Assembly: GCF_007992435.1 (NCBI RefSeq)
Contig: NZ_BKAG01000001.1
Span: 310,001-374,000, forward strand
Source of the DNA: Prosthecobacter gellanilyticus
GTDB lineage: Bacteria > Verrucomicrobiota > Verrucomicrobiia > Verrucomicrobiales > Verrucomicrobiaceae
Length of the DNA: 64,000 bases
Direction: 5' to 3'
Shown here: positions 1 through 13,384 of the stretch, in pieces
Numbering within the stretch: the first letter of the stretch is position 1
Layout of the letters: every line of letters starts with the position of its first letter
Program-made: the position numbers and the translations under genes
Notes under the pieces: generated by a model
The model's database searches: none
Seen by the model: the letters and a program-made list of their open reading frames with translations, nothing else
What the model was told of the DNA's origin: nothing

Positions 1-486
1 AACAAAGCGGCTGACGCAAAGGAGCTGAGCTACGATGCAGGCTTTGCCGCCCCGCTGCAGGTCACCTCGATCGTCGCCCCCCTTCCGCTGGAGGCAGTGA
101 AGACCTCCACGGACTTGGCGACCGCGCTCGGCCTCACGGCTTCCACACTGCAGGTGGAGATTGAAGGCGCTGGTCTGAGCAACGGTCCGGAAGCTGCCTT
201 CCTCCTGCCGACGGCTTTCGGTCTGGATTCTAAATTTGCCCTGACCCTCTCGGCACCTGCCAGCGGTTCCGCTGCGTGGACCGGTACGGTGGCCAAAGCG
301 GACGAAGGTTTCAGCGGCACGCTGACCCTGCCCGCCACGGGCGAGATCCTTGCCGGGAAAACCGCTGTCAGTGGTGTGCTGCTCCGTGGTCTGCCGAATG
401 GCAGCGTCGGTGCCGGCTGCATCCGTGTCCCTGTGACTGGCAAGAAGGGCCAGTTCCGAACTTCGTCCCTGCTACTTGAAAAATAA
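1..486 (+). CDS. C-terminal part of a surface/secreted protein (5' end outside window)
   Basis: The frame is open from the first base of the window to a TAA at 484-486, so this is the last ~161 residues of a longer protein. An internal ATG at 97 is probably not the start, because the upstream codons read as normal protein. The segment is rich in Ala, Gly, Ser, Thr and Leu and has no catalytic motif. Its end (…TGEILAGKTAVSGVLLR…GAGCIRVPV…) resembles the C-terminus of the 1598-residue surface protein at 15227-20023 (…TGLISGDFTH…WQGVLLQ…GGHGYF). I read this as a shared terminal module of Verrucomicrobia surface proteins. Only 87 bases separate it from the pseudopilin cassette, which makes it a candidate partner or substrate of that cassette (inference). 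Confidence 0.75.
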   Translation, partial: NKAADAKELSYDAGFAAPLQVTSIVAPLPLEAVKTSTDLATALGLTASTLQVEIEGAGLSNGPEAAFLLPTAFGLDSKFALTLSAPASGSAAWTGTVAKADEGFSGTLTLPATGEILAGKTAVSGVLLRGLPNGSVGAGCIRVPVTGKKGQFRTSSLLLEK

Positions 487-573
487 CCCCTGATGTTGAT
501 CCCCCCCCAGACCGATTCCCACCGCAGCCACGCAAAGCCTGAAGGACTGCAGACACTCACAGGCACGGCATCC

Positions 574-3500
574 ATGCGTCCGCAAGACGGGCGCCGCCTA
601 ACAAAAAACGGGTTCACACTGGTCGTGACCCTCGTCATCCTGGCAGCGGTGACCATTCTGGTGGTGGGGCTCTTCGGCATCGTGTCACGTGAGCGGCAGA
701 CCTCTGCCAGCTATGATGCGGTGGATCAGGCGGACCTGGCCGTGCAGGCGGGTTTGGACCGTGCCGGTGTCATGCTGAAGGGGGCGCTGGCAGATGAGCT
801 GGGGGTCATGTTCTCCGTGCCCCTCACACCTGCGCTGGATGACAAGCAGCGTCCGCGTGAGATGCTCATGGCGGCGAATTATGATGCCACGGCCAAACTG
901 TGGAAGTACCAGCCCCTGGCCTCAGGCGTGGCACGTCCGGTCGATGGTGCCAACCTGGAGATGCCGGCGGTGGCTTTTGAATCCAAGCCTGCCACGGACA
1001 AGATGGTGGGCCCGGCCGTGGATGCCAACGCGATCGAGGCCAGGCGGCTTCCCACACCCACTCCCTGGGCGGCGCGCGTGCCCCGCTTCTGGATGCAGAT
1101 GCGCCTGTCAGGCAAGAAAGTGGGCGGGCAGGAGGACGAAGGCGAGCAGGAGGAGGAAGAGCAGCCTGAACAAGACAAGGTCGTGGCCCGCTACAGCTTC
1201 TATGTCGAAGACCTGCAGGGAAAGCTCAACCTGGCCAACGTGGGTGTCCACGATAGCGACAAGAATCTGCCGTATCGTGAGATGGACATGACCCAGACGG
1301 TCATTCCACCTGCGGTTCCTTTTATCCCGGGCTTCAAAATTGACAAGGCCGCCCGCTGGCGTCGCAGCCCAGCCTCTGTCTGGACGCTTCTGCGCCCTGA
1401 CCTGGAGCCGCTCACCAGCAATTCCATCCCGGCTGATCTCAACACCATGCATCACCGCCTGACGGCCGTGAACTCCAAGCGTCTCGCCTTCAGCCCGGAA
1501 ATGTGGAGGGAGCTGCTGCTGGCGCCTGATCCTCTCACGGACTGGCCCGGTCTGGAGCTGGTGCGGCTGAACGGTCCTGCCGCTCGGCTGCCCAACGGCT
1601 CGCTCGCCGATGTACAGCTGCGGGCTTTGGAGGAAAACACCACCGGTTACCTCGCGCCTTATGATGAGCTGGCGCTGGTTCCTCATGGACCCGGCCTTGA
1701 GTTTGGCGGTGAACGCAAACTGAACCTCAACAAGATCCTCGTCGACACAGGTGGGGCGGCGGGCCCTGCGGACCATCAGAAGATGACCGCCGCGGTGAAT
1801 GAGATGGCCACGCACATCAACCGTCACCTGCCTAACTTTAAGTTGCGTGCGGGTGGCTATCCGCTGCCGCGCACTGCCGGCAACCGGGAGATCCGCCAAA
1901 TGGCCTATCTCAAAAACCTGGCGGCCGGCATGCTGGACTACGCTGACAAGGACGGCCTGCCCTCGGTCAACATTCCGTCGGGCGGCGCAGCCTCCCCCGG
2001 CGATGAGGCAAACATCGAGTACCGCGGCGGAGACTCCTATCCCATTGTGAACGAGTACTGGCAGCGCTACCGCTTTGATGAGTTCCTCGGCCGTCATGTC
2101 AAGGTGTCCATCACGGACTACGTGGAGCTCTACAATCCCACGAACCATGTCGTCACTGGTGATGTCACCTGCTGCTTCGAGGCCAAGGGGCGCTTCAGCC
2201 TGGGCTCCCGCAGCTATCCGGTGATGTCCTCCCTCCACATGGTGGATGAAGAGGATCCGGACTGCAAGAAGCCGCAGCCCATTGACGGCCTTCTGGGGTA
2301 CTGGTTCCAGCCGCAGTCGGTCACTCTTCAGCCTAACGAAATCAAGGTTCTGGCATTTGCTCCCGTGATCTTCAAGCTCGACGGCGGTGAGCTGGGGAAT
2401 GTGACCGGTGTGGCCTACTACGGAACGGCGGTGAACAACAACTACCAGGATGATCGGGACAGCCGCTACCGCCTGGCCTTCCGTCCCACGGATGAATCCG
2501 GTGGCGCCGTGCTGCCGACTTACACGGTGGTGGACCTGCCGTTCACTCCCCTGGAGCGCTACGAAAAGAAGGTCAACACCAGCTCACCCAAGCAGCTCTT
2601 CAACGTCAACGAGCCTGGACTGGCCTATCGTCTCCGCCAGAAGGGCTTTGCCTGGAATGTCGGTGACTCCAGGGCCGCCTATTACATCGACTACCATCAG
2701 GAGGAGATCTCCTACACCGCCGGCTCCAGCCCTGGCGGCCGAAATTTCCGGAGCAACATGGACTCCTACCTCCCGGGTGAGTCCAGAACCTACCTGTGGC
2801 CGGATGGCGGTCACAACACCGTTCCGTGCACTGATCACATCAACAACCGCAACCTGGACCCGGACAGCCTCGATCTGGCACCCACGGTCAACCCAACCAA
2901 TAGTCTGGCAGAGCGGCAGAAGTTTGTGCAGCGCATCTCGAATGCCGGACGCTACTACAGCATGACCGAGCTGGGGCACATCTTTGACCCCATCATGTGG
3001 AATCCCAATGGAGACACCTGGTTTGACAAGGCGGTGACGTATACCCAGCACGCCGACCTCGATGCGGCCACCCTCAAACTCAATCCGAGCCAGCAGGAGC
3101 TGGATGCGCACAAGCTCTTCTGCGGCGGCAACACTCTGCGCATCGGTCGCGTGGAGCACAGCCTGTTCCGTCCTGACTATCGGATCCGGCCGGACGCCGG
3201 GCGCCCGAAGAACCGCGGGGTCGCCGCCTCCACTCTGCTGGACCTGTTTCACTGCGGTGATGCGAACGCCGTGGAGGCCGCGAGCTACACGGGACCGCTC
3301 GTGCGGATCGACGGCCATGTGAACATCAACACCGCCAGCCGTGAAACACTGCGTGCCCTGATTGCCGGCAGGCTCTCGGCCGACCCGAGGCTGAAGCGCC
3401 AGAGCGGCGATGCTGAACCGGATGCCGCGACACCCGTCGTCATGCTGCCGGCCAGCCGGAGCCGCACGGAGGCCCAGGCAGATGTCATGGCGTCCGCCAT

Positions 3501-3912
3501 CATTCAGAACCGCCCGTATGTCACTCCGGCCGAGGTGGCGGAGAAGGCCGTGCTGTCTCGCGCGGACGCGGACAAGATGACCAAGGAACCGGCGCTGCTG
3601 CCGCTGGCGGAAAATATTCCTGTTTTTGGTTATACCAAGCGTGATCCCTCCGATGACCGCAAGGTCACGCCGGAGTGGAGTGATGCCGGGGCCGAGGAGC
3701 TCTTCGCCCGCCTCTGGAACAACAGCACGGTACGCAGCCGGCACTTCCAGGTGGTGGTGTGCGGCCAGGCGCTCAAGACCGACCGTGACGGCACGACCCA
3801 CGTGACCGCCACACGCTCACGCATTTTCCATGTTTTTGTTAGGCCGGTGCGTCGTGCAGACGGCACGATCGAGCGCCAGGATGTGGAGATCACCTATTCG
3901 CGGGCGCTCTAA
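574..3912 (+). CDS. Verru_Chthon cassette protein A (GspK-like minor pseudopilin)
   Basis: Large envelope protein of the Verru_Chthon pseudopilin cassette. After a short basic leader it has a prepilin-type segment (KNGFTLVVTLVILAAV, about residues 11-26) that continues as a hydrophobic helix. The usual Glu at +5 is replaced by Val, as in the type II secretion minor pseudopilin GspK. Near residues 916-934 a VNINTASRETLRAL stretch matches the helix-hairpin-helix-like LNVNTA motif of GspK. A very acidic run (Glu/Asp/Gln) sits at about residues 184-202. An in-frame ATG at 493 would add 27 residues that do not look like protein, so 574 is preferred; neither start has a good ribosome binding site. 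At about 1112 residues it is much longer than GspK. It is the first gene of the A-D-B-C cluster. Confidence 0.88.
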   Translation: MRPQDGRRLTKNGFTLVVTLVILAAVTILVVGLFGIVSRERQTSASYDAVDQADLAVQAGLDRAGVMLKGALADELGVMFSVPLTPALDDKQRPREMLMAANYDATAKLWKYQPLASGVARPVDGANLEMPAVAFESKPATDKMVGPAVDANAIEARRLPTPTPWAARVPRFWMQMRLSGKKVGGQEDEGEQEEEEQPEQDKVVARYSFYVEDLQGKLNLANVGVHDSDKNLPYREMDMTQTVIPPAVPFIPGFKIDKAARWRRSPASVWTLLRPDLEPLTSNSIPADLNTMHHRLTAVNSKRLAFSPEMWRELLLAPDPLTDWPGLELVRLNGPAARLPNGSLADVQLRALEENTTGYLAPYDELALVPHGPGLEFGGERKLNLNKILVDTGGAAGPADHQKMTAAVNEMATHINRHLPNFKLRAGGYPLPRTAGNREIRQMAYLKNLAAGMLDYADKDGLPSVNIPSGGAASPGDEANIEYRGGDSYPIVNEYWQRYRFDEFLGRHVKVSITDYVELYNPTNHVVTGDVTCCFEAKGRFSLGSRSYPVMSSLHMVDEEDPDCKKPQPIDGLLGYWFQPQSVTLQPNEIKVLAFAPVIFKLDGGELGNVTGVAYYGTAVNNNYQDDRDSRYRLAFRPTDESGGAVLPTYTVVDLPFTPLERYEKKVNTSSPKQLFNVNEPGLAYRLRQKGFAWNVGDSRAAYYIDYHQEEISYTAGSSPGGRNFRSNMDSYLPGESRTYLWPDGGHNTVPCTDHINNRNLDPDSLDLAPTVNPTNSLAERQKFVQRISNAGRYYSMTELGHIFDPIMWNPNGDTWFDKAVTYTQHADLDAATLKLNPSQQELDAHKLFCGGNTLRIGRVEHSLFRPDYRIRPDAGRPKNRGVAASTLLDLFHCGDANAVEAASYTGPLVRIDGHVNINTASRETLRALIAGRLSADPRLKRQSGDAEPDAATPVVMLPASRSRTEAQADVMASAIIQNRPYVTPAEVAEKAVLSRADADKMTKEPALLPLAENIPVFGYTKRDPSDDRKVTPEWSDAGAEELFARLWNNSTVRSRHFQVVVCGQALKTDRDGTTHVTATRSRIFHVFVRPVRRADGTIERQDVEITYSRAL

Positions 3913-4041
3913 GCGCGTTTTCGGAGGAGAGAAATCATTTTCAGGGCCAGGTCGGGCATCCTTATCTAACAAGGTTGACACACAGCATGAGTTGCCGTTT
4001 CACGTGTTGAAGCCGACTTGGTGCCCTCGCGAAAAGCGAGC

Positions 4042-4746
4042 ATGTCAACAATGCAAACAAAGCATCATTTGTTAGGCGATAAAACCTCCATCCGGCTTGT
4101 GAAGCTGCCACGCGGCGGCTACACACTGGTGGAGATTCTTGTCGTTGTCGGCATCATCGCCTTCATGATCGCGCTTGTGGGCAGCAGCACCGGCGTGATC
4201 GGCAAGACCCAGGGCCTGACCGCGGTGACGGAGATCACCGCGCTGTGTGATCTCGCCCGCAGTCGTTCCATGGACGGGGAAGGCCCTGTCATGGTGGCCT
4301 TTGCCACCAGCGGTGATTTCGTCACGGGCGAGCCTTATCGCTCCGCCATCCTTTGTGCGGAGGACACCTCCACCGAGGCCCCGGACGACTACATGGCCAT
4401 CGCCGAGTGGTTCTATCTCCCCACCGGTTACGTCTTCAGCAACATCGCCGCAGCCACATCGACCGCCGGTGGCAATGTGCTGACGGCCCCGAATTCAATC
4501 CGAAGGGTGAAGCTGCCGGGGAGTGATGAGACGGTGGAGCTTCCCTGCCTGGGCTTTGGTTCCCTCGGCGAGGTCGTCTTTCCTGAACCTGACACCACCT
4601 CCCAGGACACGCTGCTGATCGCCATCGCGGAAGGTACTGCGAGCTCCAACGGACCTGTTTCTCAGCGTGGCGGAGCCCACCAGCCGGGTGAGTGCCGCTG
4701 GGTGGCTGTGCGCAGGAACTCCGGCACGCCCATGATTTTGCCATGA
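4042..4746 (+). CDS. Verru_Chthon cassette protein D (GspH-like pseudopilin)
   Basis: Pseudopilin of about 234 residues. The prepilin motif GGYTLVEILVVVGIIAF starts near residue 24, with Gly before the cleavage point and Glu at +5. It is followed by a soluble domain and a C-terminus ending in RWVAVRRNSGTPMILP. The ATG at 4042 is preferred over an upstream TTG at 4018; ATG 4051 is also possible. A small hairpin (CTCGC/GCGAG around a GAAAA loop, 4026-4040) abuts the start and could mask it. The 129-base gap after protein A holds a GGAGGAGAG string with no start nearby and a TTGACA at 3974 without a convincing -10. The stop overlaps the start of the next gene (ATGA), so the two are translationally coupled. 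Confidence 0.88.
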   Translation: MSTMQTKHHLLGDKTSIRLVKLPRGGYTLVEILVVVGIIAFMIALVGSSTGVIGKTQGLTAVTEITALCDLARSRSMDGEGPVMVAFATSGDFVTGEPYRSAILCAEDTSTEAPDDYMAIAEWFYLPTGYVFSNIAAATSTAGGNVLTAPNSIRRVKLPGSDETVELPCLGFGSLGEVVFPEPDTTSQDTLLIAIAEGTASSNGPVSQRGGAHQPGECRWVAVRRNSGTPMILP

Positions 4747-5261
4747 AAACATCCCCCCCCAAACAACACACCTCCGCGGCACGCCGCACCAAGCACTCAC
4801 GACGATGCCAGCAGGGCTTCAGTTTAGTGGAGTGCATTCTCTCCATCGCCATCACCGCCACCAGTCTCCTGGGCATCATCGGCATGCTGGCCGGCTCTTT
4901 GAGCATGGCCAAGGACTCGAAGGAAGTAACCATCTCCGGCGTGCTGATCCGCCAGCTGGCCGGAGAGCTGCGTGATCTGCCGCGGCCTGCTGAACCCGGC
5001 GCCCAGGCGCAGCCCCTGGTCGTGCTGCTGGATGAGTCCATGCGGATTCTCAAGCACAGCAGCGTGCCTGCGGACAACGTCCTGGCCATGTATGACTCCG
5101 GGACGAGCCTGCCCAGCGCGACTTACTTTGCGCGTGTGGATCGCGTGGTCGATCCAAACGACCCGTTGATGGACAGCGTCGTCATCCGTGTGGAGTCCCC
5201 TGCCTCGGGTCCCGCTGGCGGACGCACGGTGCGCCGGTACGCCTCCTTGATCCCGAAATGA
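4743..5261 (+). CDS. Verru_Chthon cassette protein B (GspI-like pseudopilin)
   Basis: Pseudopilin of 172 residues. A basic, Lys/Arg/His-rich leader precedes the prepilin motif QQGFSLVECILSIAITATSL at about residues 23-42, with the canonical Gly, Phe and Glu+5, then a soluble domain containing DLPRPAEPGAQ and ending RRYASLIPK. The ATG is chosen because it overlaps the stop of the D gene by four bases (ATGA), the usual sign of coupled translation. Gene order and size fit Verru_Chthon protein B. By analogy with type II secretion it corresponds best to GspI, an inference from size and position. Confidence 0.88.
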   Translation: MKTSPPKQHTSAARRTKHSRRCQQGFSLVECILSIAITATSLLGIIGMLAGSLSMAKDSKEVTISGVLIRQLAGELRDLPRPAEPGAQAQPLVVLLDESMRILKHSSVPADNVLAMYDSGTSLPSATYFARVDRVVDPNDPLMDSVVIRVESPASGPAGGRTVRRYASLIPK

Positions 5262-5268
5262 TGCCGGC

Positions 5269-6213
5269 ATGCAAGGAACTCTGACATATCATTCTGGTCG
5301 TTCGCCGCAGTGCTTGCACCGTCAGGCGGGCTTTTCCCTGGTCGAGCTCATCGTCACCATGGCGGTGGCGCTGATCTTGATGACCGCGCTCATGCAGAGC
5401 ATGGTCTCATCCCTGGACTCCTGGACAAAGCAGGACAAGCAGTTCTCCAGCCAGCGTGAAGCCCGCGCGGCTTTGCGTCTTCTCGCGGATGATCTCGCGT
5501 CCATCGTGGTGATTCCTGGTGGCGGGCCTCTTGAGCTTGATCCTCAGGCGGTGTCCGGCCTTCAGCCCACGCGCTTCCTGGTCCAGCCCGGCACCGCCAA
5601 TTCGGTGTCCACCTGCCGGCTGGCCTTCCTCCGCTCTGCCAAGCGTGTGGCCACGGGTTCGGGCAGCGGCCGGGGAGACCTCCAGCTGGTGCTCTACGGC
5701 GTGGCCCTGACCCAGGATGGTGGTGCGAGCGGGCTGGAGCTCGATGCCCGCAGCCAGAAGCTCGTCCGCCGGGAGTTCACCCCTGCGGAGACCTACCTCA
5801 GGCTCCAGGGACACCGAGTCACCGGGCAGCCCCTCGTCTTTGAGGACGACTGGGTGAAGCTGGAGACTCCGCCTGAAAGCGCCCCCGCGAGCTCCTCCGG
5901 GGCACCTCCTGGAGCCCGCAACTCCATCCTGGCCCATGACGTCATGCGCTTTGACTGCAAGGCGCTGGAGAGTCTGGCCCCGAATCAGACGCCCTTGCCC
6001 ACCTGGCCGCAGCATCGCCTGCCCAACTGGGTGGAGGTGACTCTGCGCGTGACCAACCGCGCGACTGGACGTCAGCTCAAGACAGCCCTGGACTGGCGTG
6101 GTGAAGGCATCCTGGCCCGTGAGTTAAACAACGGCACTCCGGATGACTATGAAGATGACCGGGAGGTCCGCACCTTCTCCATGCGCCTGCGCCTGCCCAC
6201 CATGGCTCTGTAG
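5269..6213 (+). CDS. Verru_Chthon cassette protein C (GspJ-like pseudopilin)
   Basis: Pseudopilin of 314 residues. RQAGFSLVELIVTMAVALIL at about residues 18-37 is a textbook prepilin cleavage site plus N-terminal helix (Gly-Phe-Ser-Leu-Val-Glu). The following region (SSQREARAALRLLADDLASI) resembles the post-helix stretch of GspJ-type minor pseudopilins. The gene starts 7 bases after protein B stops, so the D-B-C trio is one transcription and translation unit. The C-terminal part (EDDREVRTFSMRLRLPTMAL) is typical of Verru_Chthon protein C. With A, D and B it completes a set matching the four minor pseudopilins H, I, J and K. Confidence 0.88.
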   Translation: MQGTLTYHSGRSPQCLHRQAGFSLVELIVTMAVALILMTALMQSMVSSLDSWTKQDKQFSSQREARAALRLLADDLASIVVIPGGGPLELDPQAVSGLQPTRFLVQPGTANSVSTCRLAFLRSAKRVATGSGSGRGDLQLVLYGVALTQDGGASGLELDARSQKLVRREFTPAETYLRLQGHRVTGQPLVFEDDWVKLETPPESAPASSSGAPPGARNSILAHDVMRFDCKALESLAPNQTPLPTWPQHRLPNWVEVTLRVTNRATGRQLKTALDWRGEGILARELNNGTPDDYEDDREVRTFSMRLRLPTMAL

Positions 6214-6257
6214 CTTTCGCCACTCGTTCCATTTTTTCCTGCTGCTTTCCGTTTCCC

Positions 6258-6992
6258 ATGACCCCTTCTGCTCAAAGCTCCCCTTCCCTGCCACGCCGCC
6301 GTTTCCTAACCAATAGTCTGGCTTTGGCCGCCTCGGCCCTGGCGCCTCTGCCGCTGCGTGCCTTGGAGGTTCCCACGGACTTCGCCTTTCTCCGTCTGGT
6401 GGATGCGGTGGAACTGCCCGGTCTTCTGTTCATGCGCGTTGATGGCATTGAGGCGGATCCAGCAGGCTTCAAGCAGGGCTTCGCCACGGAGGGCATCGCC
6501 CTCGCCCCCAAGACTTACCAGGTGGAGCTGGAGCATGAAACGCTGGGCAAGGAAAAGCTCACCGTGACGCTGGAGACTGGAAGGATCAGCACCATCGTCG
6601 CTTACAAGACCGAGAAGCCGCCGGAGGAGCCGAAGGTGGCCAAGGCGGCCGCCAAAGCCGAGCCGAAAAAGGACGGCCCGCGCCTCGTCTGGCATCTCGA
6701 TGAGTCACCGGCCAGCATTGCGCGCTCGAAGGATGTCAGTGTCACCATCGTGCAGCTCACCGCCAATGATGTGATGGAATTTCAAGTCGCCGGCACCCCT
6801 GCGACTGCCCGGGCTGGCGAACCCGTCCGTGTCCCGATCACCCGCTCCATGGGCACTTTTCCCACGATCAATCATCAGGGCAAGGAGGTCTGCGTGCTCA
6901 ACTTCGATGTTCGTGCTGACAAGTTCGTCGTCTTCTTCACCGGCACGGATGGCAGCCTCAAGTTCGCGCAGCTGCGCAACGACGTGCAGTAA
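6258..6992 (+). CDS. Exported protein of unknown function at the end of the Verru_Chthon cluster
   Basis: A 244-residue protein with an N-terminal export signal (LPRRRFLTNSLALAASALAP): two or more Arg then a hydrophobic stretch, close to a Tat motif but lacking the full consensus. It was not recognised as a named enzyme. It has two beta-rich halves separated by an Ala/Lys/Glu/Pro-rich linker at about residues 115-137. The gene begins 45 bases after cassette protein C and ends just before a terminator, so it is probably the last gene of that transcription unit. It may assist or be handled by the pseudopilin system, but nothing in the sequence proves this. Confidence 0.75.
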   Translation: MTPSAQSSPSLPRRRFLTNSLALAASALAPLPLRALEVPTDFAFLRLVDAVELPGLLFMRVDGIEADPAGFKQGFATEGIALAPKTYQVELEHETLGKEKLTVTLETGRISTIVAYKTEKPPEEPKVAKAAAKAEPKKDGPRLVWHLDESPASIARSKDVSVTIVQLTANDVMEFQVAGTPATARAGEPVRVPITRSMGTFPTINHQGKEVCVLNFDVRADKFVVFFTGTDGSLKFAQLRNDVQ

Positions 6993-7083: not shown

Positions 7084-10000
7084 TCACTCCGTCACACTGA
7101 GCCGGAAGAACACTTTTCCAGGCAGCGGGCCTCCGCCGGTGGTCGTGGCGGTGCCGCGCATCACCTGGGGATCATCGGATGGCAATGACTGAGTGCTGAC
7201 TTGAATGTCGAGCGTCACGGCCCCGTTGCTCTGACCGCCGCGGAACCAATGAACGAGATCCGTGGACCACTCCACCTCTCCCGTGACGTCTTCGCGGTTC
7301 AAGGCGCGCTTGAAGGTGAAGACGGCACTGGACCCCGTGGTGGTGACAGACATCCCTCCGCCGTTGTTGCCATCCTCAGGCGGCGTTCCCATGAAATACT
7401 CCAGAAGGTTCGAGAGGCCGTCACCATCGGCATCGGCGGAAGGGCTGCGTTTGTCTGGATTGCTGATATTGGCAAGAGACCAGTCTTGGGCGGGGTTGTC
7501 GGCAATGCTGGCGGAGGCGATGGCGGTCGCGCCTAACGAATAGTTTGCATCGCTGGCGATGTTGATTTGAACCGTCTCCGTGCCCTCGGCGATGTCATCC
7601 GCAAGCACGGTGAGGGGAAGGCTGGCGGAAGACTGGCCTGTGGGAATCACAAGACTGCTGCTAAAGCCGGTGTAGTCAGCCTCAGGGCTGGCGGTGCCGC
7701 CTGCGGCGAGAGCGACTGTGAGTGCCGCGCCTGTGCTGCCACTGCGGGAGACGGTGAAGCTGAGGGACTTGTCGGAACCATGCTCACCTGCGGTCGCATC
7801 TGGAGCACTGATGGTGACCGTGTTCGCAGGCGGGGAGACAGGTGGCGCGAATGGAATGACCAGGATGCGAACATCAATCGCCTGATGCGTGCCGCTGACC
7901 TGCGGCAGGTCCTGGCTGAAGATGCGGAACTTGCTGCCGTTGGCGGACCAGGCCACGAGGTTGTCCAGGGCATTGGTGGCGCGCGTGGAGTCTGCGGTCA
8001 CAAAAAGCGCGGCAGTGCTTGGATTGATCACCGAGCCATCACCGAACTGCAGGTCCAGTCCGTCAGTGCCAGGAGTGGCTGTCAGCGTGCCGAAGCTGGT
8101 GAGGCCGGCATTCATCCGCGAAACCACTCCCGCGCTGCTGACGGCTGCGGCAAACACCCCTGGAGTCGTCGCGGGGATGTAGACAAAGCAGAAGTCACCG
8201 TCTTGCTCGGAGGCACCGTTGTCACGGACCTCCACCAGCCATCGGCCCTCCTGGATGCGAACGGAGCAGACGTTGTCACCGGAAGTGCCGCCATTGCCAT
8301 TTGGCACCGCCAGCAAGTTTCCAGCCGTGGAAAGCCCGTCGATGGAGTAGATGCCTGCTTCTCCGAGTTTGGAAATCGTGACGCCGGCAGGAAGATTCCC
8401 GCTCAACACGACTCCAGCACCGCTCACGCTCGCTCCTGTCCAGCCTGCGGCGTAGGGGAGATGGGCCACGCTGACGCCGGAGGTCTGCTCGGACGTGGTG
8501 GGATTGTCGTCACTGGCGTTGTTGTTGCTGTTGTCCAGCACGCTGATGTTCGCGTTGCCATCCGCACCGGCAAAGGGCAGCGAGAGGTTGTCATAAGAGT
8601 CCACATTCCCCGCGATGCTGGCCGGGCTGTTCCAGCTCGCTGCCAGAGTGATGCCGCCACTGAAAGGCACAGCGGCTCCGGCGATCTTGAGCGCGACATC
8701 ACCATCGTTGCTGCCAGGCAGATTGAAATGATAAGGCGCCGGACTGGTGGCCACCACGGTCCATGCAGGCGGGTCAAACAGACCGACGGATCGCCTGGAA
8801 ACATCGGACGGTGCGGTGGCCTCGACAAAGACGGAAACGATGACAGGATCCGAGGTGACCACCTGGCCGATGCTGTCCGTGACCTTTGCGGTGAAGGTGT
8901 AGGTGCCCGGAGCCAGGTTAGTCACATTGCGGCTGAAGGGAGCCTGAGTATCCACGCCGAGCAAGGTGCCGCCGGAAAAGAACTCCACCTTGTCCACCGG
9001 ACCTTCCGCATCGGTGGCCGTGGCAGTGAGGGTGATGCTGGCTGGAGCGGGAAGAGCCGTCCCGTTCGTGGGCGCGGTGATGGCAATGACCGGAGGCTCA
9101 TCACCCACCACCACAGTGATCTTGGCGATGTTGGACATGGTGACCGCCTTGTCGTTGTCCACGGCCACGGCCACGATGTTATGGGTGCCCACGGTGGCGT
9201 TGCTCCAGGTGTGAGAATACGGAGTGGAGGTGTCCTCGCCAAGTTTGGTGCCGTCCCGGTAGAACTCCACGCGCTGGATGCTGCCGTCCGAATCTGCCGC
9301 CGTGGCTGTCATGTCGATGTTCACCGGCGTGCCAAACACAGCCTGGTGGGCGGGAGTGACGAGGCTCACCGTGGGCGCGGCGTTGGGAGCGCGGGTGAAG
9401 CGGCGTGCTGCGGAACTGCTGGTTAGGCTGCCGTCTGACACCGCCGCATACCACTCGTAGTTTTTGCCGTCCTCCAGGCCGGTCCAGTTCAGGGCGGCGT
9501 TGTGACCGCCTGCCGCCACACTGACGGTTCCCAGCGGCAGCCAGCCCATCACCGGGGTCTGCATGTTGTAAGGCAGGTTCACCGTGTTTTCCCAGGATGG
9601 GATCGAGTCGCTCGCATTCACAGCACGGTCTAGAGTCGGTGAATAGCTTTCGAGTTTGATGGAGTTGGTGGACGGGGAGAAGGTCAGCGTGCGGAGGAAA
9701 CCATTGCCGCCATTGGTGGCGCCCTGGTAGTCGGAGAGCACGGAGTAGACTGTGCGGCCCTGATACACATCCGCTCTGCGGCCTTCCGCGTGGATGTGGC
9801 CGCAGAGCATGAGGAAGAAGTTCGGATTGTTTTTCAGTGCATCATAGATGCCGCGGCCCTGGGCGCTGAAGCTGGCCGGATTTCCGCCGCCGATGATGGA
9901 GTGGCTGGTGGCGATGGCCCGGCGGTGCGGATGTGCCTTCAACAACGCATCGGCCCAGTTCAGGATGGCCGCGTTGGGCGTGGTGTCATACGCGAAATGA

Positions 10001-13000
10001 ATGGCGATGAAGTCCAGTCCGCTGGCGGTGAAGAGCTGGTAGTTGTTCGTGTTGTCGCTGCCGTAGTTGCCGCCCCAGTAGCTGCGCTTGGCAAAGCGGC
10101 TCGTGCCAAAGAACTGGTTATAAAACGAGGTGGAACCGTCATCATAATCTCCGATGGGCGAGATGTCATGATTGCCCGGTGCCACGCCAAAGGGCACACC
10201 GTGCCCGAGCAAGGTGGTGATGGGGTTCTCCAGCTTCGCCATCGCCGCGGAAGCGCGGGTCCATTCGATGTTGTTGCCGCCGTTGTTGCCCTTTTGCACG
10301 ATGTCACCCATGTGACTGACAAAGGCGATGTTTCGCGTCTTCCGGTTCTCCACGACCCATTCAGTCTGGGCGCCAAAGGTGGCGATGAGCTGCTGCACGG
10401 AGATCGTGTCAGCATGTCCTGCGGCGCCTTCCGAATAGAACTGCGTGTCCGGGATCTGGACGATCTTGAAATCCGGCCCCGGTGTCGCCGGCACGGTATG
10501 GCGGCCGTAGAAGGTCACGGTCATGGCATCGCCATTCGGATCAAACACCTGCGCCTGAAGATTCGCGGTGCCACCTGTCACTGAGCCACCATCCGCCGGA
10601 GATGTCAGAGACACAGCGGGATGGTTGGCCGTCGGCATCACATAAAGTGTCGCAGCATCACTTTCCTTGCTGCCGCCCAGGTCATCCAGAGCTCGGGCGC
10701 GAAGCGTGTATTGCCCGGTCGCCGGCGGTGTCCAGGTGAAGCTATACGGAGAGCTCGAGTCCTCGCCGACCTCGACTCCATCCACCAGGAACTCGACATT
10801 GACCACCAGACCATCAGCGTCCGTCGCGGCCGCCTGCAGTGTGACGGGGGCAGACACCGCGCTGCTGGAAACCGCCGCAGGCGCAGTGAGCGCGACTGTT
10901 GGCAGGGTGTTGGCGGCGCCGAAAGGCATGCCCTCCACCCAAAGCGGTCCGTTGGTGAGTGTGCCGGTGTGGGAACCTGTGGAACTGGTGGTGGAGGTGC
11001 CAGTGCCTTCATTCAAACCGAAGCGGCCGATCAGCCCTGGCGCCGTGCTCACAGGTTGATCCTTGCTTGCCACGATCTGGGACGCGCTGCGAGCATAGTT
11101 CCACACACGCGCTTCATCGATGCGTCCACGGAACGCACCATCGGTAACACCCGTGGAGTTCAAGGCCGTGCCGATCGCAAAATGCTGAATGCTGTCCAAA
11201 CGCGGACGTGCATTCGCCGTGACGGTGATGCTGCCGGCTGGAACACCATCCAGATACATCTTCCAGGTGCTGGTTGCGTGATCGTAAGTCACGGCGGCAT
11301 GGTGCCAGGCGTTGTTGGTCACCGGGTCATGCGTGGCGGTGATGGGGAAGTTGTCTCCAGCAGTCACACCCGTGGCAGGCTGGGCTTCAAAGTCTGCCAC
11401 AAGCCGGCCTTCGGCGTTGATGCCGAAGAAGATGTTGCAGTCCACATTGCTGCCATCGCTTTCGCCACGGCCTTTGCCAAACAGAGGCGTTCCATTGACA
11501 CCTCCTGAGCCGGACCCTGAGGTGATACCCGCGCCTTCGCGGTTGAACCAGCACTCCAGAGTGAACCCCGCATCACTCATCTGTCCCACGTTAAGTGTCG
11601 GCGCGGCTCCCATGGTCACGTAGTCATTCGTGCCATCGAAGGACAGGGCGGTGTTCGCCGGGATGCTGGCGGGTGCGAGGGTCACCCGGACTTGGTTCAC
11701 GGCGGTCGTGGCCATGTTGCCTTCATTGTCGGTGGCACGCGCCTGATAGTCGTGATGACCTGCCCGGAGGTTGTTATCCTGAAAGGTGTAAGGGGCCGTA
11801 GCGTCGGTGGCGATGACCAGTCCGTTGCGCAGAAACTCCACCTGGGTCACGCTGCCATCTGCATCTGTGGCCGTGGCTTCTAATGTGACACCAGCCGGGG
11901 CTGCGCCAGCGCTGCCAGCAGCAGGAGAGGTCAGCGTGACGACCGGCAGCACCGGCGCGGTGAAGAACGCGAAGCTGAAGACATCATCCGCAGCTGCCGA
12001 GGCATTCTGCAAGCCCGGCGTGGCACCCGGCAGATCGCGTGTTTCGATGACCCACCGGCTGCCTGCTTGGTCCCAACCGCAGGTGACGATGTTGTCCGTG
12101 GTGTTGCCGACTCCACCTTCCGGACTCACCAGCATCGTGCCGGTGGCCGGTGACTCACCACTGATCTGCAGATACCAGATTCCGGTGGCACCCTTGGTCA
12201 CCGTCGTCGTTTTGCCAGGGATCTTCGCGGAGACATCCATGCTGGCGTCATTGTTCACGCGACCGATGGCGGTGAGATGCTCCGTGCCCACCTTCGCCGT
12301 TGGCACATACACAAAGCCGACGCCGTCATTCTCATAGGTGGCGCCGTCCACTCCGTTGTCGTGGCAGTAGATCGTGAAGCTGCCGTTCGCGTTCGCCTGT
12401 GACAGCGCATAGTTGTCCTCATTGCGCGCGCCGGTGACGAGCAGAATGCCGTTCTGCGAGGCATTGTTTCCGGTCAGGGTGTTGATGCTCAGCGTGTACT
12501 GGCCGCCTGGAGTGGCCAGATCCGTGAAGTGTGTGTTCAGCACCAGTCCGGAGCTGCCTGAGAGCTCGGTCAGCTCGCCATTGTTCGCCGCATTGCGTGC
12601 GTTGCCGCCGATCCACTTGCTGTACGGGAAGAAGCCAAAGTTCACATCGATGTTCACCTCATCCCCGGCAGGCGCGCTGAAAAGAGCGATGGTATAATCT
12701 GACAGACCATCGTTGGGCCCGGTGGCTGCTGTGGCAAAGAAGCGTCCGACCGTGTCCCCCTGGGCGGTGTTGTCTCGGGACAATTGCGATACATACGGAA
12801 TGAGCACGCCAGCCTGCGTGTCCACTCCCGTGCCGAAGTCCAGACCATAGTCCCCGCGGTTGCCGCCCGTGAGGGTGAAGTACGGCGAGCTGCCTGGAGC
12901 CTTCGTGAGGGTGACGGAGGCTTCCGTGTTCTCGGAATTGTTCTGGATGACGGTGATGCCGCCAAACTCGGTGGTCTGGGCGCGGATGCCCGCAGGCATA

Positions 13001-13047
13001 ACCAAAAGAAAGGAAACGGAGGCCAGGAGGCTGGACAAACGGTGCAT
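7084..13047 (-). CDS. Giant secreted metallophosphoesterase with Ig-like, LamG and Calx-beta domains
   Basis: Extracellular calcineurin-like phosphoesterase of about 1987 residues. MHRLSSLLASVSFLLVMPAG…AQ is a Sec signal peptide; an upstream in-frame start at 13128 would bury it. In order: N-terminal beta modules; an Ig-like domain; a LamG/concanavalin-like domain (about 464-705); two more Ig-like domains; the phosphoesterase (about 860-1135) with PDTQ, GDIVQ, GNHD, SHSI and GHIHAE metal-ligand motifs; a fibronectin-III-like stretch; two Ig-like domains (LTSPA…, TATDADG… type); two more beta modules; a Calx-beta domain (about 1740-1840); a DADGDGLSNLLEY calcium-binding motif; and a terminal domain ending FFRLSVTE. 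Substrate unknown. All metal-binding motifs look intact. A terminator lies immediately downstream. Confidence 0.92.
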   Translation of the reverse strand: MHRLSSLLASVSFLLVMPAGIRAQTTEFGGITVIQNNSENTEASVTLTKAPGSSPYFTLTGGNRGDYGLDFGTGVDTQAGVLIPYVSQLSRDNTAQGDTVGRFFATAATGPNDGLSDYTIALFSAPAGDEVNIDVNFGFFPYSKWIGGNARNAANNGELTELSGSSGLVLNTHFTDLATPGGQYTLSINTLTGNNASQNGILLVTGARNEDNYALSQANANGSFTIYCHDNGVDGATYENDGVGFVYVPTAKVGTEHLTAIGRVNNDASMDVSAKIPGKTTTVTKGATGIWYLQISGESPATGTMLVSPEGGVGNTTDNIVTCGWDQAGSRWVIETRDLPGATPGLQNASAAADDVFSFAFFTAPVLPVVTLTSPAAGSAGAAPAGVTLEATATDADGSVTQVEFLRNGLVIATDATAPYTFQDNNLRAGHHDYQARATDNEGNMATTAVNQVRVTLAPASIPANTALSFDGTNDYVTMGAAPTLNVGQMSDAGFTLECWFNREGAGITSGSGSGGVNGTPLFGKGRGESDGSNVDCNIFFGINAEGRLVADFEAQPATGVTAGDNFPITATHDPVTNNAWHHAAVTYDHATSTWKMYLDGVPAGSITVTANARPRLDSIQHFAIGTALNSTGVTDGAFRGRIDEARVWNYARSASQIVASKDQPVSTAPGLIGRFGLNEGTGTSTTSSTGSHTGTLTNGPLWVEGMPFGAANTLPTVALTAPAAVSSSAVSAPVTLQAAATDADGLVVNVEFLVDGVEVGEDSSSPYSFTWTPPATGQYTLRARALDDLGGSKESDAATLYVMPTANHPAVSLTSPADGGSVTGGTANLQAQVFDPNGDAMTVTFYGRHTVPATPGPDFKIVQIPDTQFYSEGAAGHADTISVQQLIATFGAQTEWVVENRKTRNIAFVSHMGDIVQKGNNGGNNIEWTRASAAMAKLENPITTLLGHGVPFGVAPGNHDISPIGDYDDGSTSFYNQFFGTSRFAKRSYWGGNYGSDNTNNYQLFTASGLDFIAIHFAYDTTPNAAILNWADALLKAHPHRRAIATSHSIIGGGNPASFSAQGRGIYDALKNNPNFFLMLCGHIHAEGRRADVYQGRTVYSVLSDYQGATNGGNGFLRTLTFSPSTNSIKLESYSPTLDRAVNASDSIPSWENTVNLPYNMQTPVMGWLPLGTVSVAAGGHNAALNWTGLEDGKNYEWYAAVSDGSLTSSSAARRFTRAPNAAPTVSLVTPAHQAVFGTPVNIDMTATAADSDGSIQRVEFYRDGTKLGEDTSTPYSHTWSNATVGTHNIVAVAVDNDKAVTMSNIAKITVVVGDEPPVIAITAPTNGTALPAPASITLTATATDAEGPVDKVEFFSGGTLLGVDTQAPFSRNVTNLAPGTYTFTAKVTDSIGQVVTSDPVIVSVFVEATAPSDVSRRSVGLFDPPAWTVVATSPAPYHFNLPGSNDGDVALKIAGAAVPFSGGITLAASWNSPASIAGNVDSYDNLSLPFAGADGNANISVLDNSNNNASDDNPTTSEQTSGVSVAHLPYAAGWTGASVSGAGVVLSGNLPAGVTISKLGEAGIYSIDGLSTAGNLLAVPNGNGGTSGDNVCSVRIQEGRWLVEVRDNGASEQDGDFCFVYIPATTPGVFAAAVSSAGVVSRMNAGLTSFGTLTATPGTDGLDLQFGDGSVINPSTAALFVTADSTRATNALDNLVAWSANGSKFRIFSQDLPQVSGTHQAIDVRILVIPFAPPVSPPANTVTISAPDATAGEHGSDKSLSFTVSRSGSTGAALTVALAAGGTASPEADYTGFSSSLVIPTGQSSASLPLTVLADDIAEGTETVQINIASDANYSLGATAIASASIADNPAQDWSLANISNPDKRSPSADADGDGLSNLLEYFMGTPPEDGNNGGGMSVTTTGSSAVFTFKRALNREDVTGEVEWSTDLVHWFRGGQSNGAVTLDIQVSTQSLPSDDPQVMRGTATTTGGGPLPGKVFFRLSVTE

Positions 13048-13384
13048 GGAATCGGGAGGGATGTGGGCGAGCCGGTCTTGGATCCGGCTAAAGTGCCGAA
13101 GCTGAGAGTGAGCTGCCCTGAAGGGCACGCGCAGCGTTCACGACCACCACGCACAGAGTCTCACGCCATCATAAGTGACCCGCTTCACGCCTTCGTCACA
13201 TCCTGCGTCTCAACGATTTCGGCAGTGAACATTTTGTCACACGAATGGACTGCGCACCTTGTGCGCAGTCCATTTCGCCACCTGCCGCTGCTGCTCGGCG
13301 AGAACCTTCTGGAGGTCTGCGATCCGCAAGCGTCGAGAGTTCCAACTCAAGTAAGTCCTTCTCTTCGATCCACCGGCGTGACCC
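13048..13384. other. Intergenic gap with a strong 14-bp hairpin at 13244-13274
   Basis: No gene is apparent in these 337 bases. They hold a perfect hairpin: 14-base arms at 13244-13257 and 13261-13274 (AATGGACTGCGCAC and its complement) around a 3-base loop. It lies downstream of the dehydratase gene on the minus strand and upstream of the phosphoesterase gene. It may terminate the dehydratase transcript, but no U-tract follows on either strand, so a REP-like element is equally possible. Confidence 0.6.

Follow-up and report, generated by a model that had tools for sequence, protein, structure and literature searches.

Gene layout and prepilin-like N-termini

The DNA studied here, called the window below, is a stretch of 64,000 nucleotides (nt) from Prosthecobacter gellanilyticus (assembly GCF_007992435.1, contig NZ_BKAG01000001.1, positions 310,001 to 374,000 of the forward strand), and positions are counted from its first letter. 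The first 6992 nt hold, all on the plus strand, the 3′ end of a giant gene, four genes for prepilin-like proteins (A, D, B and C, in this order) and a gene for a small exported protein (E). An earlier interpretation made from the letters alone, referred to as the sequence-only reading, had described this region as a Verru_Chthon cassette encoding a free-standing tip of minor pseudopilins with its own surface-protein partner, and had equated A, D, B and C with GspK, GspH, GspI and GspJ of the type II secretion system (T2SS). In our analysis the identification of A as an enlarged GspK is well supported by its predicted fold, its motifs, the missing Glu at mature position +5 (Glu5) and synteny, and a tip complex of A, D, B and C is likely.

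The gene for A spans 493 to 3912 and encodes 1,139 amino acids (aa). It is followed by the prepilin-like genes D (4018 to 4746, in the GspH position), B (4743 to 5261, in the GspI position) and C (5269 to 6213, in the GspJ position), each recognised by its open reading frame (ORF), by profiles and by its Glu5. These ORFs lie where the sequence-only reading had placed them, with small corrections: D more likely starts at the ATG at 4042 or 4051 than at 4018, and B most likely starts at the ATG at 4743 instead of 4692, as in the listed ORF, so that its start overlaps the stop of D as ATGA.

All four proteins carry prepilin-like N-termini, with the mature sequences GFTLVV in A, GYTLVE in D and GFSLVE in both B and C, placing Val at +5 in A and Glu in the other three. 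Relatives keep the pattern: Glu occupies +5 in 18/18 D, 18/19 B (the other has Asp) and 18/18 C proteins, and in none of the 25 A relatives with a residue at that position (one further row is gapped). In a whole-genome search the N_methyl model found D, B and C above its curated cut-off (E-values of 5.5e-4, 1.1e-4 and 3.2e-7, respectively), and their prepilin N-termini are therefore not due to chance; D scanned singly scored slightly below the cut-off (19.4 versus 21.2 bits). The N-terminus of A matched the GspK and PilX_N models, both below cut-off, the PilX_N score being 23.1 versus 25.5 bits; 7 of 26 members of the A family matched PilX_N at E ≤ 0.1.

Predicted fold of A and assignment of D, B and C

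The predicted model of A (mean predicted local distance difference test score, pLDDT, 66; predicted template modelling score 0.74) had XcpX/GspK as its best structural neighbour (6utu_C; Z 15.2, root mean square deviation 3.5, 231 of 261 aa aligned). A chain of a pseudopilus model came second (9a1f_T; Z 13.9, 260 of 295 aligned) and the third row of the comparison reached only Z 6.7, so that the likeness to GspK proposed in the sequence-only reading is borne out at the level of the predicted fold. Since the range of A aligned to GspK runs from residue 77 to residue 1139, the two halves of GspK would flank a long extra stretch. This stretch, of about 600 residues, is absent from normal GspK and contains in the model a β-sandwich at residues ~517-710 (2041 to 2622), for which C2-like domains were the best, although weak, neighbours (Z ≤ 6.7).

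Two GspK-like motifs are separated accordingly in the sequence of A. The first, EDLQGKLNL, was spotted by eye at about residue 240, and the second is VNINTA at residues 943-948 (3319 to 3336); they lie about 700 residues apart, compared with about 100 in the GspK of the T2SS on contig C2 of the same genome. VNINTA, to which the sequence-only reading had already pointed, is kept as [VI]N[VIL]N[TS][AT] in the 12 of 12 window-type A proteins listed. With its 1,139 aa, A is three to four times as large as usual, the GspK proteins of this genome having 320-330. A search of the PDB sequences with the profile of A returned no pseudopilin, and an hhalign comparison of window-type A with three T2SS GspK proteins of the same genome was not significant, which is why the identification of A rests on structure, motifs and gene order; the T2SSK model PF03934 was matched at E ≤ 0.1 by 4 of 26 A family members.

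The equations of D, B and C with GspH, GspI and GspJ are partly supported, by gene order and Glu5. All four genes were called in 14 of 30 related loci, and these have them as D-B-C-A throughout; the remaining 16 show part of this order or A alone, and none shows a contrary order. D-B-C-A corresponds to the order gspH-I-J-K. The genome itself has H-I-J-K in its T2SS on contigs C2 and C11 and in a further set on C14. Only here and in two genomes of the same genus (G024 and G033) was A seen in front. Profile comparison contributed less to these assignments: D aligned furthest with GspH (70 columns), B was hardly separated between GspI (55 columns) and GspG (53), and C could not be placed as GspJ among the pseudopilin families, in a comparison for which seven input rows were badly trimmed. 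The match between the sequence profiles of D, B and C and PDB pilins is mostly confined to the N-terminal helix.

Exported neighbours, core machinery and related cassettes

The small exported protein that the sequence-only reading had noted at 6258 to 6992 is a constant neighbour of A. Searched with a profile of E, 26 of the 30 related loci have a match immediately downstream of A; 11 of these had served to build the profile, and the other 15, which include a weak match in L128 (8.7e-4), had not. Three of the four other loci (L102, L111 and L116) end 513, 70 and 711 bases after A, and in the fourth (L112) A is incomplete. The 12 other A loci searched (L016-L018 and L069-L077), TIGR02600-type loci among them, yielded no E. 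The protein has a signal-peptide-like N-terminus and two tandem β-sandwich domains, well predicted (mean pLDDT 79.7), resembling in fold only PepT ectodomains (Z 15) and AlgF domains (Z 10). DUF4397 was matched by 6 of 27 E family members, and E of the window had no Pfam match. A match of one E domain to a cytolysin domain was dropped as a guide to function, this being a common β-sandwich. In some relatives E is tandemly duplicated (L104:11569-12988 and L105:13086-14481, also L060).

Upstream of A lies a giant gene of 2,930 codons, which begins about 8.3 kb before the window with a signal-peptide-like start and follows a tandem paralogue of 2,478 codons. Positions 1 to 486 are its C-terminal 161 codons (by ORF, Pfam and module profile), so that the surface protein assigned to them in the sequence-only reading is indeed an exported protein but merely the end of one. 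The giant comprises a choice-of-anchor I domain, 5′-nucleotidase-like parts and, at its C-terminus, an unnamed module some 250-300 residues long; in its last 1000 aa the Pfam scan found 5_nucleotid_C and He_PIG only, and the PilY1 domain was absent. The module itself had no Pfam match at E ≤ 0.01 in 17/17 members scanned, and with its profile no PDB match fell below E 0.86. Many large proteins of this genome carry it: profiles matched at 87 places, spread over about 80 frames, including a copy before the cassette on contig C8 that was missed by a single-sequence search (31 places).

Three of the four A genes of this genome (window, C8 and C5) come directly after a module gene, while the one on C9 does not; this count omits a TIGR02600 match on C14 (15 bits), which is a normal-sized GspK. 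If 80 of ~6,000 genes (our own estimate) carry the module, three of four would have a chance of about 1 in 100,000, a figure that duplication of linked pairs would weaken. The preceding module gene, whose presence the sequence-only reading had suggested checking, is a recurrent but not a universal neighbour. As for the giant itself, it was seen in front of the window-type cassette in three genomes of the genus (this one, G024 and G033) and not in the three other carriers seen there (G049, G054 and G055, of which G054 is cut upstream).

We also sampled 53 A loci, consisting of the four of this genome, nine from the A search (L069-L077) and 40 picked from the TIGR02600 matches; many come from the same genus, so that many are orthologous and not independent. 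With simple ORF calls, 17 module genes were present in these loci, 13 of them directly upstream of A (13/53 loci) and two one gene further up. A same-strand gene of at least 1000 aa stood directly upstream of A in 26/53 loci, compared with 9 genes of that size among 241 non-adjacent ones. Of 35 large genes adjacent to A (≥ 600 aa, on either side), 14 matched the autotransporter β-strand repeat and 12 PEP_CTERM; a few encode ordinary enzymes, among them topoisomerase III and an RND permease. Because 50/53 of the sampled A proteins exceed the TIGR02600 cut-off (the exceptions are A of the window, L072 with 131.9 bits and L074 with 36.1 bits), it is chiefly the TIGR02600-type cassettes that are linked to large exported proteins, a property shared by the lineage of the window. 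The surface-protein partner is a real tendency and not a rule, and E is the more reliable partner of A.

With regard to the core machinery, the T2SSE and Secretin models had no match on the contig of the window, in agreement with the sequence-only reading; that core genes are not nearby does not extend to G024, as described below. Elsewhere the genome encodes two T2SS, each with its own tip (C2 and C11), a G-H-I-J-K set on C14 and a further core on C28, which comprises two adjacent GspE/PilB-type ATPases, GspF, a GspG-like subunit, PilN- and GspM-like genes and a secretin (L132 and L133). No H-K genes were seen in C28:66000-89883, and no N_methyl match was found on that contig. The first ATPase of C28 matches PilB best and the second GspE and PilB about equally; for its prepilin and secretin the top families are GspG and GspD, with scores below cut-off. 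The PilN-like gene of this core is matched in 59/59 family genomes, in some through paralogues only. The cassette of G024, orthologous to that of the window, is separated by two genes, about 2 kb, from an E-E-F-G core orthologous to that of C28, and in G006 D-B-C-A is immediately preceded by a prepilin gene that scores highest with GspG, though below its cut-off (37.1 versus 88.85 bits). On these two single cases the C28 core is the best candidate for serving the window tip; the G-H-I-J-K set of C14 is an alternative tip source for that core. This set (C14:39828-42885, L019:7829-10886) has no ATPase or platform genes beside it and lies, by eye, near a penicillin-binding-protein-like gene.

Exact membership of the window cassette in the Verru_Chthon type (TIGR02600, TIGR02596, TIGR02598 and TIGR02599) was ruled out, and the name given to it in the sequence-only reading is too strict, all four genes scoring below the curated cut-offs (in bits, A 23.1/332.3, D 26.2/70, B 23.7/51.4 and C 32.8/256.5). 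Three of the four match these models near the N-terminus only; the match of D covers positions 1-114 of 196. Window A and TIGR02600-type A nevertheless align in hhalign with a probability of 99.5% over 200 N-terminal columns, with no similarity shown beyond. Being below the cut-offs and yet linked in A, the window cassette is a sister type of the Verru_Chthon cassette. Both have a giant A with a prepilin-like N-terminus together with prepilins B, C and D, and the Verru_Chthon type is likewise often found beside a giant exported protein; the window type differs in its usual order D-B-C-A-E, with E not found in the TIGR02600-type loci searched.

TIGR02600 genes above cut-off number three in this genome (C9, C8 and C5), and the model was matched in 54/59 family genomes. 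Window-type A was matched in 13/59, one of them (G002) only via weak matches to A genes above the TIGR02600 cut-off. Across the phylum the window type occurs in at least 11 of 288 genomes, a lower bound as two candidates were scored per genome, G223 being represented by no more than a short N-terminal stretch. The Verru_Chthon models are old, and we found no functional paper on these genes in a partial literature collection. TIGR02597 was considered as a cassette partner and rejected, since none of its four matches in the genome lies at a cassette, the nearest being about 19 kb from that on C8. On C5 (G000:C5:188318-192202; L018:6304-10254) the start of a lone TIGR02600-type A overlaps the stop of a module-bearing exported protein, whose gene comes after a second such gene; L144 has the same layout.

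A putative pseudopilus tip and its alternatives

Taken together, these data make it reasonably probable, though well short of certain, that A, D, B and C are a K-H-I-J-type tip of a T2SS-like pseudopilus that carries E, and here also the giant, to or through a secretin. The four proteins would form the tip and prime the pseudopilus, with A outermost and the ~600 residues between its GspK halves making an enlarged head, while the ATPase, platform, major pseudopilin and secretin would be supplied from elsewhere in the genome. The head of A may bind its partner in the periplasm and bring it to or through the secretin, the cargo being E and, in this lineage, also the phosphoesterase-like giant whose C-terminal module ends just before A. 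We infer each of these steps, that is, the tip complex, the use of a shared core, partner binding and delivery to the surface. Two established precedents come close to this mechanism: minor pseudopilins, which PMC6211770 describes as recognising secretion substrates in the T2SS, and PilY1, which sits on minor pilins and is likened to a T2SS substrate in PMC7541494. The likeness to the GspH-I-J-K tip (XcpUVWX) comprises four minor subunits, one without Glu5 and with a GspK fold (predicted for A), and the gene order of the relatives, A being first in the window itself; the differences are the size of A, a contig without core genes and the constant exported neighbour.

Several observations weigh against this interpretation. 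Plain Foldseek gave no PDB match for A at E ≤ 0.001, the confidence of its model is middling (mean pLDDT 66), and A scores below the curated GspK cut-offs (NF037980 37.9/130 and PF03934 15.1/24.2 bits). Fold prediction covers A (and E), D, B and C being assigned from sequence, and the profile of D is best with major pilins in the PDB, FimU appearing at E 0.011 only. C9 has a full cassette without a surface-protein neighbour, and C5 has an A without D, B and C, so that the four do not always occur together. A giant surface gene directly beside the cassette was seen in 0/30 window-type loci (by eye; several are cut). Finally, as the genome has the C14 G-H-I-J-K set and two T2SS with their own tips, the C28 core may use those other tips.

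Some of these observations lend weight to the possibility, which we hold to be distinctly less probable, that the genome has several general tips, interchangeable with one another, of which this cassette is one, and that the giants lie beside it by chance or co-regulation without being cargo. The C9 cassette, the window-type cassettes elsewhere, beside which none was seen, and the ordinary enzymes among the large neighbours would fit this, as would the abundance of the module, whose 87 matches mean that most module proteins have no cassette. On the other hand, the position immediately before A is occupied by a large gene far more often than other positions in these loci, and three of the four A genes here come after a module gene.

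A retractable type IV pilus, with A, D, B and C as a priming or tip complex of the FimU-PilV-PilW-PilX kind bearing a PilY1-like adhesin and serving adhesion, surface sensing or DNA uptake in place of secretion, is somewhat less probable again and seems doubtful to us, although the two roles are not separable by sequence alone. The matches of A family members to PilX_N, a match of B to PilV below cut-off and the PilB-like ATPases of C28 favour it. The lack of Glu5, taken in the sequence-only reading as the mark of GspK among the minor pseudopilins of the T2SS, is also a property of PilX according to PMC7541494, which further describes three clusters of Myxococcus xanthus, each combining one PilY1 with four minor pilins. 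The arrangement is alike in having four minor pilins, a large exported surface protein and several clusters per genome. It differs in the top subunit, which in the window is GspK-like in predicted fold and carries VNINTA, and in the scanned part of the neighbour, where the PilY1 domain is missing; the GspG- and GspD-like prepilin and secretin of C28 also count against a pilus. That A does without any filament and, fixed in the membrane, serves the product of the preceding gene as chaperone or anchor, with D, B and C as accessories, is improbable, since A retains the prepilin helix and both GspK halves and prepilin genes accompany it in most loci read, even if the lone A genes overlapping a module gene on C5 and in L144 would suit it.

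Returning to the secretion tip, a broader scheme, which is more doubtful still than the pilus, would have Verrucomicrobiales swap pseudopilus tips, each giant GspK being dedicated to the giant surface protein, or the small exported one, of the neighbouring gene and all of them working on a shared type II-like core without its own H-K genes, with the module as the docking signal for the giant K head. Cargo choice by type II systems is still unsettled. If the scheme were true, a genome with several tips, and with three of four giant-K genes beside different very large exported proteins, would make tip-cargo specificity testable through single deletions of A, and the Verru_Chthon genes would acquire a concrete role.

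As to the remaining features, a promoter and terminator scan gave no more signals than in shuffled sequences. Downstream of E, a further giant gene runs convergently on the minus strand (7084 to 13128); its N-terminal part is a paralogue of the giant that precedes A (by ORF and alignment, 48% over 787 aa), so that the cassette sits between related large genes.

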